DNA from: a virus
IMG/VR virus record: IMGVR_UViG_3300043119_000065
Span: 1 to 46,580 of that record
Strand: one strand, 5' to 3'
DNA: 46,580 bases
Part shown: piece after piece, positions 18,582-45,212 of the stretch
Position numbering within the stretch: the first letter of the stretch is position 1
Layout of the letters: each line of letters starts with the position of its first letter
Notes under the pieces: generated by a model
Seen by the model: the letters and a program-made list of their open reading frames with translations, nothing else
What the model was told of the DNA's origin: nothing
Database searches by the model: none
Made by a program: the position numbers and the translations under genes

Positions 18582-19136
18582 TTATTTATAGGTGTTGGAT
18601 TTAGACATATTAAGGTCAGCCCTAAGAACTTGTAAGTTTTCTGGTACATGTAAACCGCAAACATTCTCTCCTTTAAGGGGGATTATGTGATCCACATGAT
18701 ACTTTACACCTGTTATATCTTCCATAAGAGCCGCAAGTTTATAGGTGCGCTTAATGTGTGCTTTTTGACCATCAGTCAACCAAACTGGGGTAGCTTGAAC
18801 TTTTGTAGAGCGGCGTTTTGCAGACTTCTCTCTGCTATAGGCTTTGTTTTCTTTAGACCATTGCCTATTTCTTTCGTTGTGCTTGTCCCTATTCTCTACA
18901 ACCCAAACCCTAGCCCGCTCTTTATTGTCGGGGTTTAATAGTATCTTCTCTTTATTGTTATAGTAATAGTTTTTGCTGTAATCTTTTACTTTAACATTAC
19001 CAACACGGGATTTTCTACTGCTGTTTGAACAAACCCTGCACTTAGGTAGAACACCGTATTTGTATCTTTTATGGGGGGTAAACAAATCTAGAGGTAAGTC
19101 TTTTTTACAGCCGTTGCACAACTTAAACTCAGGCAT
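18582..19136 (-). CDS. HNH homing endonuclease (free-standing)
   Basis: The 184-residue protein has an N-terminal zinc finger (CNGCKKDLPLDLF, then CRVC), a basic linker and a C-terminal HNH nuclease core (HVDHIIPLKG...CGLHVPENLQVL...NMSKSN). It closely resembles the HNH protein encoded at 26414-26914. Its start overlaps the end of the upstream tail gene by eight bases, and it separates that gene from the major tail protein, a typical free-standing homing endonuclease site. Confidence 0.88.
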   Translation of the reverse strand: MPEFKLCNGCKKDLPLDLFTPHKRYKYGVLPKCRVCSNSSRKSRVGNVKVKDYSKNYYYNNKEKILLNPDNKERARVWVVENRDKHNERNRQWSKENKAYSREKSAKRRSTKVQATPVWLTDGQKAHIKRTYKLAALMEDITGVKYHVDHIIPLKGENVCGLHVPENLQVLRADLNMSKSNTYK

Positions 19137-25114: not shown

Positions 25115-26430
25115 TGAACCGCCCCACCCGCATCAGGGTTATACTCAATCTCAGCAATGTCCATGAGGTCTTTAATGACTTCTGGGTGAGAGGACACATC
25201 AATACCAGCACCATTGAGGTTACGCAGGAAGGATGCAATCTCACGAAGATCATGGGGAGCAACATCACCAGCTACGATAGTTGGCATCAGGTCATAATTC
25301 AGACCATTCAGTTGCCAAAGGCTTTCAACTAGCTGTTTGTTAAGAACATCTACGATTGCTTGGATATAACTCTCAAGGGCGCGTAGGAATAGGTCAGTCT
25401 TAGACTTAGACAAAGCATAAGAACCACCAGAAGTCCCTAACAACAAAAACTCAGACAATACTGAACGAGCAATGTCGTGTTGGTAACGATTGATGATGGG
25501 ATTAATGTCGATGTTACGGCTTCCGTTAGAAGACATAAGTTCTACATCGACTAGGCGGATGTTAGTTGGCGCACCATCTTTATCTGGATAGGTATCGCTA
25601 GGCAGGATGATATAACCCTGCTCGTTGAACTTAACATCACGAAGGATTGTCTGTAGGCTATTGACAAAGCTGGCTTGTGCATCAGAAGCATCACCAGACA
25701 AATACTCAGCAGGGATACGGGCAACTGGAATACCAGCAAGTTCCCGTTCCACAGCGATAGCTTCAATAGCTTGTAGATTATTCAAGTATTCGTAAGACGT
25801 ATAAGCATTACGAAGGATAGAACGACCAGAAGGATCACCATTAAGGCTAGTGGTATGGTAATACAGAGATTTGTTTAGGGGGATGTAGTTGCTACCAGTC
25901 AGATTAGTCACGCTCTGTTCAATACCAAGAACATCACCAGTCTGATAATCGACATCAAACTTGTTGATAGTCCAAGGCGCACGAGCAGCAATCTTACGGA
26001 TGCCCATACGACCATCAGCATACTTAGAACGCTTCTTATCGGAACGCTCATAAGGACCAACACGACGCTTATAAACAACCTCAAACCATGCAAAGCCATA
26101 CGACAAGAAAGACAAGGCTTCTGCAACGTGATCGTCTAAGGTATGGTCCATATCATGCAGGACGCTCTTAACGAAGTCAGCTTCGGCAATAGCCTCTGGT
26201 GTATCGTTGACAGGTTTCACATCTAGGCTAACATCGCGGAGGATTTGTTCAACTGCATACATAACAGCGCCGATAGTGCTATCATTGTCCCTCATGGCTC
26301 TATACATACGGATAGCTTTTCTGCCACGAAGTTCTGGAAGAAACTCGTCTGATCTTATTTGCCCGTTACGAGTATTGTCGCCAGCTACGCCTAGTGTAGA
26401 CTTAGCTTGACCTTCAGAAAGTTTCTCCAT
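25111..26430 (-). CDS. Portal protein
   Basis: The 439-residue protein shows portal features: AVMYAVEQILRDVSLDVKP, an LSYGFAWFEVVYKRR strand, SLYYHTTSLNGDPSGRSILR, the long-helix region YTSYEYLNNLQAIEAIAVER and a C-terminal wing. It most resembles DUF935-like or gp6-like portals. It is the DNA entry ring and follows the large terminase, with an HNH gene wedged between them. Confidence 0.85.
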   Translation of the reverse strand: MEKLSEGQAKSTLGVAGDNTRNGQIRSDEFLPELRGRKAIRMYRAMRDNDSTIGAVMYAVEQILRDVSLDVKPVNDTPEAIAEADFVKSVLHDMDHTLDDHVAEALSFLSYGFAWFEVVYKRRVGPYERSDKKRSKYADGRMGIRKIAARAPWTINKFDVDYQTGDVLGIEQSVTNLTGSNYIPLNKSLYYHTTSLNGDPSGRSILRNAYTSYEYLNNLQAIEAIAVERELAGIPVARIPAEYLSGDASDAQASFVNSLQTILRDVKFNEQGYIILPSDTYPDKDGAPTNIRLVDVELMSSNGSRNIDINPIINRYQHDIARSVLSEFLLLGTSGGSYALSKSKTDLFLRALESYIQAIVDVLNKQLVESLWQLNGLNYDLMPTIVAGDVAPHDLREIASFLRNLNGAGIDVSSHPEVIKDLMDIAEIEYNPDAGGAVQ

Positions 26431-26914
26431 TGTAACGGTTACCTTTTGTCATATTAATTTTGGCAGGGAGTAGTTGTAGGTTCCAAGGAACGTGGAGTCC
26501 GCACACATCCTTACCAGCTAAGGGAACAATGTGATCAACATGATAACAAGTATTGCAAAGTCTCTCGAACTTTTTAGCAAGGGCATACATTGCCTTTATG
26601 TCGTCATGCTGCTCTTTAGTAAGCCAGACTGGAGTTGCATCTAAAGTCTCGGCCCTACGTTTTGCAGAGTGATGCGCCCTAACTTCTGGGTTCTCTTTAT
26701 TATATCTTGTATAACGGGCTTTTTCTTTATCAGAGTTACGAGTGCGATAGTTTTTTGTTATTTCACGCGATCTTTTAGGGTCAATATCTCTACGAACTTG
26801 AGAGGCTTTTTTACTGCACTCTAAGCAGCAAGAGGAATATCCAGACTTTTTTGACTTGTCTTTACCAAATAAAGGTAAGTCCTTTTCTGCCTTACATTTA
26901 GTGCATAGCTTCAC
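26414..26914 (-). CDS. HNH homing endonuclease (free-standing)
   Basis: The 166-residue protein has a zinc finger (LCTKCKAEKDLPLF, then CCLEC) and a C-terminal HNH core (HVDHIVPLAG...CGLHVPWNLQLL...NMTKGN). It starts at GTG 26914, overlapping the terminase stop (GTGA), and its last 17 bases overlap the portal start. The two ends are thus fitted exactly between two essential genes. It is a paralogue of the HNH protein at 18582-19136. Confidence 0.88.
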   Translation of the reverse strand: MKLCTKCKAEKDLPLFGKDKSKKSGYSSCCLECSKKASQVRRDIDPKRSREITKNYRTRNSDKEKARYTRYNKENPEVRAHHSAKRRAETLDATPVWLTKEQHDDIKAMYALAKKFERLCNTCYHVDHIVPLAGKDVCGLHVPWNLQLLPAKINMTKGNRYNGETF

Positions 26915-43664: not shown

Positions 43665-43865
43665 ATGATTAAAATTAAAACTGAAAAGATGAACCCTTTT
43701 TTGGTTTTTGCTATTGCAATTCTTGTAATTGTGGCTGCACCCCTTCTGGTTATTGCTTCTCTTAATACCTTGTTCCCTGCGCTGTCTATCCCATATACGT
43801 TTGGAACTTGGTTTGCCACAGCGTTTCTTGTGTCTGTATTTAGTGCTGGAAAGACAAAAGAATGA
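43665..43865 (+). CDS. Small membrane protein with two spans
   Basis: The 66-residue protein has two hydrophobic spans (FLVFAIAILVIVAAPLLVIA and TFGTWFATAFLVSVFSAG). It starts one base after the previous stop and overlaps the next gene by four bases. Unknown role. Confidence 0.6.
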   Translation: MIKIKTEKMNPFLVFAIAILVIVAAPLLVIASLNTLFPALSIPYTFGTWFATAFLVSVFSAGKTKE

Positions 43866-44062
43866 AAATCTCTATTACCTTTACTCATACTCAAGAAGAA
43901 GATGGGTTTGATGGGCAGACTGGTGCTGTTCGGGATAACGTGACTGACCTCTATGAGGCTGCACAAGTCCTGACAGACGCCTTTCGAGGGGCTGGCTTCT
44001 CCTATGTGGTGAACGTAGGGTTTGAAAAAGATGATGGCGAAGTCGTTTTTGGTCAGTTTTAA
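43862..44062 (+). CDS. Hypothetical protein
   Basis: The 66-residue acidic protein (DNVTDLYEAAQVLTDAFRGA, YVVNVGFEKDDGEVVFGQF) looks like a small alpha-beta protein. It overlaps the upstream gene and precedes the HNH gene. Not recognised. Confidence 0.6.
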   Translation: MKISITFTHTQEEDGFDGQTGAVRDNVTDLYEAAQVLTDAFRGAGFSYVVNVGFEKDDGEVVFGQF

Positions 44063-44074
44063 GGAAGTAATCAA

Positions 44075-44521
44075 GTGGAAAATAAAGGTAAAGTCTTAGT
44101 AGACGGTAAAACTTGCCCTAAGTGTAGCGTCTTTAAGCCTTTAGACTCATTCCACAAAGACAAAACCTCAAAATTTGGATTGGCATATTACTGTAAAGTT
44201 TGTGCCAATTCTTCTTCGAGAAAGAACCACAAGACACTTTCAGAAAACACAAGTTGGGTCTTGGAAAGACGCCATAGACAAAAAACTGCTGCTAGGGAAT
44301 CTAAACTAAAAGCTATAGAATATATTGGTAATAAGTGTTTGGATTGTGGTAATACTTATCCTTCCTATGTGTATGATATACACCACATAGATGGGGATAC
44401 AAAACTAGATAACCCCTCTAGACTTTTAAGGGGAGATTGGGTTTTGGCAAAGGCTGAGTTAGATAAGTGCGTATTACTATGCGCTAATTGTCATAGGGAG
44501 AGACATTTTGGGGCGCGGTAA
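44075..44521 (+). CDS. HNH endonuclease inserted at the exonuclease gene start
   Basis: The 148-residue protein begins at GTG 44075 with AAGGAAG upstream. It has an N-terminal zinc finger (CPKCSVFKPLDSF, then CKVC) like the other two HNH proteins. Its C-terminal HNH domain differs: CLDCGN, YDIHHIDGDTKLDNP and LLCANCHRERH. Residues 5-11 read GKVLVDG, the same as residues 4-10 of the exonuclease that follows, and 18 of 20 bases match. It appears to have captured or duplicated the start of its target gene. Confidence 0.88.
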   Translation: MENKGKVLVDGKTCPKCSVFKPLDSFHKDKTSKFGLAYYCKVCANSSSRKNHKTLSENTSWVLERRHRQKTAARESKLKAIEYIGNKCLDCGNTYPSYVYDIHHIDGDTKLDNPSRLLRGDWVLAKAELDKCVLLCANCHRERHFGAR

Positions 44522-45212
44522 AGTTTTAGTGGACGGAGACATTATCGCATATAGGGCTGCCTTTTCCACTCAAGATAAAGCCCCTGATGATGCGATAAAG
44601 AAGACTGAGGAAATTATCACTTACATTCTTAACGAGTGTGTTGGTTTTCCTTTCGCATCATCAGATGACTTTCAGGTCTATCTAACAGGTAGTGGTAACT
44701 TTCGGTATGACATTGCTAAATCCCATGAGTATAAAGGGAATAGGAAATATACCGAAAAGCCACAATACCTAGGATTAACACGAGAGTATTTAACTGATAA
44801 TTATGGGGCCATTACAAGTTCTGGGGAAGAAGCTGACGATCTGATTTCAAAAGCTGCTGCTGCACTTGATTATAATTGTGTTGTTGCCTCTATTGATAAG
44901 GATATGCTTCAACTCCCTTGTTGGCATTATAACTTTGGTAAGGGTGAATGGGGTAAGGTAGAACCTTTCGGGGGAACTAAATTCTTCTATACTCAAATCT
45001 TGACTGGTGATAGAGCAGATAATATCGTAGGCATTCATGGCATTGGCCCTGTAAAGGCTGATAAACTTCTACAAGATTGCGACACAGAAGAAAAGCTATG
45101 GGATGCTGTAGTCAAAGCCTATCAGGGTGATACAGAAAGGGTAATTGAGAATGCGAGACTTTTATGGCTAAGGCGATACGACAATCAACTGTGGGAACCA
45201 CCCAAGCCATAA
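44508..45212 (+). CDS. 5'-3' exonuclease (FEN or T7 gp6-like)
   Basis: The 234-residue protein has the FEN-type motifs: VLVDGDIIAYR with the first metal ligand, GEEADDLISKAA, ASIDKDMLQLP and TGDRADNIVGIHGIGPVKADKL with the helix-hairpin-helix. It degrades 5' ends and primers during replication and recombination. It uses a TTG start at 44508 inside the HNH gene, with AGGGAG upstream, probably created by the HNH insertion. Confidence 0.88.
   Translation: MGRGKVLVDGDIIAYRAAFSTQDKAPDDAIKKTEEIITYILNECVGFPFASSDDFQVYLTGSGNFRYDIAKSHEYKGNRKYTEKPQYLGLTREYLTDNYGAITSSGEEADDLISKAAAALDYNCVVASIDKDMLQLPCWHYNFGKGEWGKVEPFGGTKFFYTQILTGDRADNIVGIHGIGPVKADKLLQDCDTEEKLWDAVVKAYQGDTERVIENARLLWLRRYDNQLWEPPKP

Follow-up and report, generated by a model that had tools for sequence, protein, structure and literature searches.

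The exonuclease locus

The window analysed here, from a marine phage, is the whole of a virus record, IMGVR_UViG_3300043119_000065, which is 46,580 bases long. Its replication block contains, in this order, a DNA polymerase gene, a gene of unknown function, a small hydrophobic gene, a gene for a 66-residue protein, an HNH endonuclease gene, a 5'-3' exonuclease gene and the gene for endonuclease I. The features around the HNH and exonuclease genes are listed below, where 'empty' denotes relatives without the HNH gene and loci of the collection carry the letter L.

43862..44062, + strand: conserved 66-residue gene, the left flank; directly 5' of the exonuclease in the empty relatives L005 and L006
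44061..44067, + strand: AAGGAAG ribosome-binding site, ancestrally that of the exonuclease and now that of the HNH gene; found likewise ahead of the exonuclease GTG in L005 and L006
44075..44521, + strand: HNH endonuclease gene, 148 residues, phrog_2255; GTG start, MENKGKVLVDGKTCPKC...; two CxxC pairs and an HH...N...H motif
44075..44106, + strand: left copy, the original exonuclease start and first codons (GTG, MENKGKVLVDG), which today encode the HNH N-terminus; 31 of 33 nucleotides identical to the empty site of L006
44087..44106, + strand: left unit of a 20-bp repeat, GGTAAAGTCTTAGTAGACGG, from a repeat search of the window
44107..44516, + strand: inserted segment between the repeat units, absent from L005 and L006 in a four-way alignment
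44495..44502, + strand: Shine-Dalgarno-like (SD-like) sequence AGGGAGAG, within conserved C-terminal codons of the HNH gene and 5 nt 5' of the new exonuclease start
44508..44546, + strand: right copy, where the exonuclease 5' end is rewritten and begins at a new TTG (MGRGKVLVDGDII), from comparison with the empty L006
44517..44536, + strand: right unit of the 20-bp repeat, GGTAAAGTTTTAGTGGACGG, from the same repeat search
44508..45212, + strand: 5'-3' exonuclease, phrog_107, the target gene; TTG start, MGRGKVLVDGDIIAY...; the N-terminal domain PF02739 scores above the Pfam cut-off and PF01367 below it

The HNH and exonuclease reading frames overlap by 14 nt. The two repeat units are identical at 18 of 20 bases and are the only two occurrences of this sequence on either strand of the 46.6 kb, allowing up to three mismatches. 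A chance repeat was ruled out, as no occurrences are expected from 100 dinucleotide shuffles. The initial annotation, made from sequence alone, had described the two frames, their shared first codons and the 18-of-20 repeat, and these coordinates and starts held as described.

The TTG start of the exonuclease is backed by an ATG at the homologous position of L004, as well as by the SD-like sequence, the L004 counterpart of which is AGGAAGAGG. Both versions are encoded by the C-terminal codons of the HNH gene (CHRERH or CHRKRH), ahead of the new exonuclease start. These codons could thus be a built-in ribosome site for the exonuclease; the site is present in the sequence, and its use is inferred.

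Two more HNH/endonuclease VII-like genes lie elsewhere in the window, at 18582-19136 and 26414-26914, both on the minus strand. Each begins within the end of the preceding gene, and the one at 26414-26914 is directly behind a large-terminase-like gene.

The HNH protein and its family

The window HNH protein matches the phrog_2255 HNH endonuclease profile with E=1.1e-31, and a Pfam search gave no match to a Pfam HNH family. In the family alignment (A3) residues H103, H104, N138, H140 and H144 are invariant, as are the Cys columns. The AlphaFold model of the protein has an overall pLDDT of 90, but its residues 1-10 have a mean of only 51 and the fold begins at residue 11. The ten residues derived from the exonuclease are therefore disordered in the predicted fold and appear to be tolerated, not used. 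A fold search with the model returned only weak matches to HNH domains, the best with E=8e-3.

Single-protein scans with the HNH proteins of the window and of L004 gave few relatives, and the wider set came from alignment scans. Members of the family lie directly 5' of the same exonuclease in Zobellviridae, Grimontviridae, Gordonclarkvirinae, a Vibrio phage and many uncultured phages. Distant relatives of the HNH protein turned up at 55 loci when bacterial and archaeal genomes were scanned; by a profile check, none of these loci has the exonuclease directly downstream. Genes that adjoin the exonuclease cluster on the HNH tree, where the label for not adjoining it requires 8 changes compared to 36 in shuffles. 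The proteins of the window, L004, L101 and L102 form one supported clade. Within it the nearest relative of the window protein is L101, not L004, and the site must therefore have been struck or exchanged more than once. At three loci (L113, L122 and L243) a gene of the same family is found directly 3' of the exonuclease instead of 5'.

The copies at the N-termini of other HNH proteins follow the exonuclease start of their own host phage, such as MRILID, PEVAIVDAD, MKALIDAD or DSVALI. Furthermore, members of the same clade at L091, L092, L104-L106 and L109 precede the exonuclease and carry no copy of its start. The initial annotation would have been refuted had the HNH family always carried GKVLVDG regardless of location, and this is not the case. 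One subgroup (L111, L212 and others) has a native N-terminal module, FLVDGKxVP; LVDG alone is therefore not diagnostic and was not counted as a copy. At L101, L102, L107, L121, L145 and L146 the copies are visible in the proteins, but DNA identity is near background, and at L101 and L102 one copy is difficult to match to the other as DNA. These loci are supporting, not decisive. The exonuclease of L107 (2396-3148) is broken a second time in the middle of the gene, giving two profile matches about 45 nt apart.

Empty and occupied relatives of the window

A scan of viral contigs with the window exonuclease returned 80 loci. By exonuclease, the closest named phages are the Roseobacter phages CRP-6 and CRP-5 and the Lentibacter phage ICBM2, all three of which lack an HNH gene at this point; CRP-5 and ICBM2 belong to the Zobellviridae, Cobavirinae. 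The exonucleases of L005 and L006 are 98-99% identical to that of the window, and the HNH gene is absent from both. Their empty site consists of the AAGGAAG ribosome site, a GTG and MENKGKVLVDGDIIAY, with a single KVLVDG start; in L006 it reads ...TTTTAAGGAAGTAATCAAGTGGAAAATAAAGGTAAAGTCTTAGTAGATGGCGACATAATCGCA. The window HNH gene opens with these same exonuclease codons and departs from the exonuclease sequence straight after LVDG. The initial annotation had proposed that the HNH gene was inserted just after the exonuclease start, taking over its ribosome site and first codons, and had predicted that relatives without the gene would show one KVLVDG start behind AAGGAAG. L005 and L006 fulfil this prediction and support the insertion.

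L004, which is equally close to the window, has a different HNH gene (179 residues, with a body 48% identical) at the same junction and in the same two-copy layout. MENKGKVLVDG heads the HNH protein, and the exonuclease is restarted from an ATG, as MGRGKILVDG, at the HNH tail.

The right copy of the window, counted from GGTAAAG (44517), differs from L006 at 6 of 39 nucleotides, all synonymous, compared to 14 of 657 in the rest of the gene (p=4.5e-4). Near the site, L005 and L006, both empty, likewise show elevated synonymous divergence from each other (5 of 36). The window has the weakest rewriting of the cases (18/20 between its copies); taken alone, it only hints that the rewriting might be protective, and the strong evidence comes from cultured phages.

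The insertion in cultured phages

Salmonella phage PKM.Hi.22.6 and E. coli phages ECBP2 and Bas93 carry the same HNH family in the start of the same exonuclease gene. PKM.Hi.22.6 is occupied and PKM.Lu.22.1 is empty, although the 500 nt upstream are identical in the two (500/500). At this site PKM.Lu.22.1 has ATGCGTATACTTATTGACGCTGACATTCTTCGATATCAG. PKM.Hi.22.6 has ATGCGTATACTTATTGAC, then the HNH gene and then ATGAGGATATTACTGGACGCTGACATATTGCGATATCAG, its left copy being identical to the empty start (18/18). Its right copy differs from PKM.Lu at 9 of 33 nucleotides, compared to 4 in the next 936 (p=1.3e-11). The changes amount to four synonymous codon swaps (e.g. CGT->AGG, CTT->TTA and CTT->TTG) and one Ile->Leu replacement. 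They are confined to the first 33 nt, which are followed by 270 identical nucleotides, and include two-base switches between codon boxes. The insert is also absent from the more distant HNH-free relatives 7-11 and GAP52.

The two E. coli phages reveal what moves. The HNH bodies of ECBP2 and Bas93 are 98.5% identical in DNA and their right copies do not differ at all (0/48), whereas the exonuclease beyond the right copy differs at 192 of 768 nucleotides (25%). Each left copy matches an empty relative of its own phage: ECBP2 matches TH42 at 45 of 45 positions, and Bas93 matches 1-6af at 42 of 45. Because the right copy is common and the left copies are host-specific, the moving unit is the HNH gene together with the rewritten exonuclease start, and the old start of the recipient stays behind as the front of the HNH gene. 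In the collection examined, the right-copy DNA of ECBP2 and Bas93 occurs whole only in HNH-bearing phages and that of PKM.Hi only in PKM.Hi itself. The initial claim that a second copy rebuilt the 5' end of the exonuclease calls for one refinement: in ECBP2, Bas93 and PKM.Hi.22.6 that copy was not rebuilt from local sequence, but is a diverged version that arrived with the HNH gene.

At the position where its neighbour PAS59 has GTGGATGCAGAT, the HNH-free exonuclease of E. coli phage SU7 (L341, 601-650) has GTGGACGGAGAT (VDGD), as does the rewritten copy of ECBP2; this might be a resistance or conversion allele. In Salinivibrio phage CW02 (L333, about 660-701) the exonuclease frame, ...PLIDGDIILYEAG, is not preceded by an ATG, GTG or TTG. 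The codons after the SD sequence AAGGAGGTG are CTT ATT ACG, and the start is perhaps ATT or ACG. The annotated start of this exonuclease is downstream and loses the active-site motif.

Alternative explanations

Occupied and empty alleles thus exist in otherwise near-identical genomes (window and L004 versus L005 and L006, PKM.Hi versus PKM.Lu, ECBP2 versus TH42). Four explanations other than a homing element with its own exonuclease start were considered.

The HNH gene could be a normal resident gene, the N-terminus of which is similar to the exonuclease by chance or through a shared function of the LVDG motif, as the native FLVDGKxVP module of one subgroup might suggest. This is practically excluded: the left copies are identical in DNA to empty exonuclease starts at 31/33, 45/45 and 18/18 positions, and each is specific to the lineage of its own phage. 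The empty and occupied pairs rule out a shared LVDG motif as the source of the similarity at the DNA level.

The window might represent the ancestral state and L005 and L006 might have lost the HNH gene. Recombination between the repeats is possible in principle, and such a loss cannot be excluded for the window lineage alone. It is nevertheless improbable, as nearly all other related exonuclease loci have no HNH gene here and recombination between the repeats cannot turn PKM.Hi into PKM.Lu. PKM.Lu is not a deletion product of PKM.Hi, because its ATTCTT is found in neither PKM.Hi copy.

The 20-bp repeat could be a transposon-like target-site duplication, copied at integration and drifted later, as a short direct repeat exactly flanks the window insert. 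We consider this highly improbable. The flanks of PKM.Hi and PKM.Lu are identical over 500 nt upstream and differ at 4 of 936 positions downstream, yet the copies differ at 9 of 33, and the second copy must therefore have been different already on arrival. Furthermore, the right copy is common to ECBP2 and Bas93 and the left copy is not, and the HNH gene is the sole gene in the insert, without a transposase. A transposon producing identical direct repeats at insertion was rejected on the same 9 differences, the PKM.Hi insertion being very recent.

The most serious alternative is that the right copy is the native exonuclease start of another phage, co-converted with the HNH gene, in which case it has ordinary foreign ancestry and no protective role. 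Homing by repair commonly co-converts flanking DNA (PMC2988022), and GRGKVLIDG starts are native, at the protein level, in L014 and L020-L022. Against this, the divergence in PKM.Hi ends sharply past the target codons (33 nt, then 270 identical), it includes two-base codon-box switches, and the rewritten DNA is present in no HNH-free phage of the collection. Co-conversion remains possible.

A probable two-part homing element

The existence of empty and occupied alleles, the junctions, the match of the left copy to the host, the joint travel of the HNH gene and right copy, and the intact exonuclease frame are shown. The PKM.Hi/PKM.Lu and ECBP2/Bas93 comparisons, the alleles of L004-L006 and the clustering on the HNH tree support the interpretation that we favor, namely a homing element whose two parts, the HNH gene and a rewritten version of the first ~10-16 exonuclease codons, move together. 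This is the probable explanation, in which cleavage, homing and the protective role are inferred. The close relatives with and without the insert also show that this happened in several unrelated phages independently.

The target would be the DNA encoding the start of the exonuclease active-site motif (LVDGD-I), and the HNH protein is inferred to cut or nick an empty exonuclease gene at these codons. Repair off the element-bearing genome would then insert the HNH gene and swap the 5' end of the exonuclease for the rewritten version; the junctions are shown, the route is inferred. The recipient's start codon, ribosome site and first codons remain upstream as an in-frame fusion with the HNH gene and would supply its translation start, an arrangement shown in the sequence. 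The exonuclease would restart from a new initiation codon where the HNH gene ends, mostly ATG and TTG in the window; the codon is seen and its use inferred. The synonymous rewriting would leave the protein the same and alter the DNA target, so that the element spares itself, and/or would block recombination between the copies that would delete the HNH gene; both roles are inferred. The element is thus likely to be a natural 'home-and-rescue' system, with cleavage and protection by the rewritten copy being inferred.

Stop-interrupted exonucleases in a sister group

At some 20 loci that carry this HNH family, a sister group of the HNH genes stands ahead of an exonuclease that is interrupted immediately after LIDGDIL by a short insert containing a stop codon. 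Interruptions of 5-7 nt with a stop codon were noted at this point in L088, L096, L111, L112, L116, L121, L123, L183, L184, L186, L187, L192, L202, L204, L209, L212, L213, L216, L217, L219 and L237; these exonucleases are almost always behind an HNH gene and the interruption is mostly Leu-stop-Leu. A stop with a matched landing codon, as in T4 gene 60, is found in 18 in-frame Leu-stop-Leu cases and in L096 and L123; the inserts of L130 and L155 do not fit this pattern. The insert reads CTT TGAC CTA in Phriendly, the HNH-free relatives of which have an uninterrupted codon string, and GAT TA GAT in L123. The window exonuclease has no stop-containing insert.

When 2.9 million viral contigs were scanned for IDGDIL-stop-L, 13 matches were obtained, 9 of which are this exonuclease. 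Directly upstream of these nine are this HNH family (seven), a different HNH-type homing endonuclease (one) and a contig end (one). The scan demanded CTN on both sides of the stop, and thus tests the link with HNH, not the codon match. The inserts show no consistent RNA structure (z-scores -3.2 to +1.4). At L186 (reverse strand) the stop-interrupted exonuclease is preceded, upstream of 1226, by an HNH-type homing endonuclease of another kind, with the motif VHRLVAKAFIPNP...EVNHLN...DNLEWCT, and a second nuclease family may conceivably target the same site.

Ribosome hopping has matched codons around a stop as its signature and is known from synthetic constructs; according to a 2016 recoding review (PMC5009743), no in-frame case is known in nature. 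The inserts might be natural ribosome stop-hops or might be read through, skipping being inferred from the sequence. Simple readthrough could explain the in-frame stops, but not Phriendly or L123; for Phriendly, +1 frameshifting is another possible alternative to hopping.

A bolder interpretation unites the two groups. One HNH lineage homing to the active-site codons of the exonuclease would have evolved two means of self-protection: type A, a synonymously rewritten 5' end, as in the window, and type B, a 5-7 nt stop-containing insert in the cut site, over which ribosomes would hop between two matched codons (CTT-TAG-CTN, CTG-TGA-CTA, CTT-TGAC-CTA or GAT-TA-GAT). Support comes from the nine exonucleases of the contig scan, eight of them with a homing-type endonuclease, and from the uninterrupted codons in the HNH-free relatives of Phriendly. 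We hold this joint proposal tentatively and would not favor it at present. If true, type B would represent the first in-frame 'stop-hop' from nature, given the 2016 review; the sister group in any case provides candidates for natural ribosomal stop-hopping, of which that review knew none.

Comparison with known systems

No phage precedent for such an element was found in the open literature searched, subscription papers being outside the search. The nearest known mechanisms are the WHO elements of yeasts and mobile ORFs of fungal mitochondria, both of which act at 3' ends. WHO elements occur in Torulaspora and Lachancea (Coughlan et al. 2020, PMC7282813), where cleavage was tested. As in the phage element, the mobile unit is an endonuclease gene plus a piece of the target gene (the WHO piece is cleavage-resistant, whereas in the phages resistance is only inferred), each homing event exchanges one end of the target while the old end persists in the recipient, and divergent endonucleases recur at one site. 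Two hallmarks of a WHO-like system are met: a diverged target piece moves with the endonuclease (0/48 versus 192/768 in ECBP2 and Bas93) and the old end is left behind (left copies 18/18, 45/45, 42/45 and 31/33). A WHO element proper is ruled out, as WHO is an intein-derived zinc-finger endonuclease at the 3' end of FBA1 in a eukaryote, whereas the phage protein is an HNH enzyme at the 5' end of an exonuclease gene. Only in the phages is the left-over piece reused, to provide the endonuclease gene with its start codon and ribosome site. In the fungal mitochondrial mobile ORFs (Allomyces atp6; Glomus atp6, atp9, cox2 and nad3; PMC3630166) an endonuclease ORF likewise arrives with a foreign, diverged end of the host gene that replaces the native one, but the ends are 3', the genomes mitochondrial and the endonucleases LAGLIDADG or GIY-YIG.

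The free-standing HNH genes of T4-like phages (mobA-mobE) are similarly located next to conserved genes of nucleotide metabolism and replication, but they lie between genes and no rewritten target start is described for them (PMC2988022). Where the cleavage sites of free-standing enzymes are known, they lie at a distance of hundreds of bases or more (PMC2988022). The sister group resembles the bypass of T4 gene 60 (PMC5009743), where translation skips a short untranslatable insert that lies near a homing endonuclease and may prevent cleavage. The gene 60 insert is 50 nt long with matched GGA codons, whereas the sister-group inserts are 5-7 nt, mostly Leu-stop-Leu, and their bypass is putative.

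The phage element shows a route by which a free-standing homing gene can enter a conserved coding start without an intron or intein: the start is stolen and a rewritten start is repaid. The cultured pairs that differ by the insertion (PKM.Hi/PKM.Lu and ECBP2/TH42) open cleavage, resistance and homing to direct test. In engineered home-and-rescue gene drives (PMC7968924) a homing nuclease likewise inserts into an essential gene and restores its function. Those drives are CRISPR-based, synthetic and made in insects, whereas the phage element is natural and acts at a 5' end. Its logic would be that of the engineered drives, occurring naturally in phages as a 5' mirror of the yeast WHO elements.
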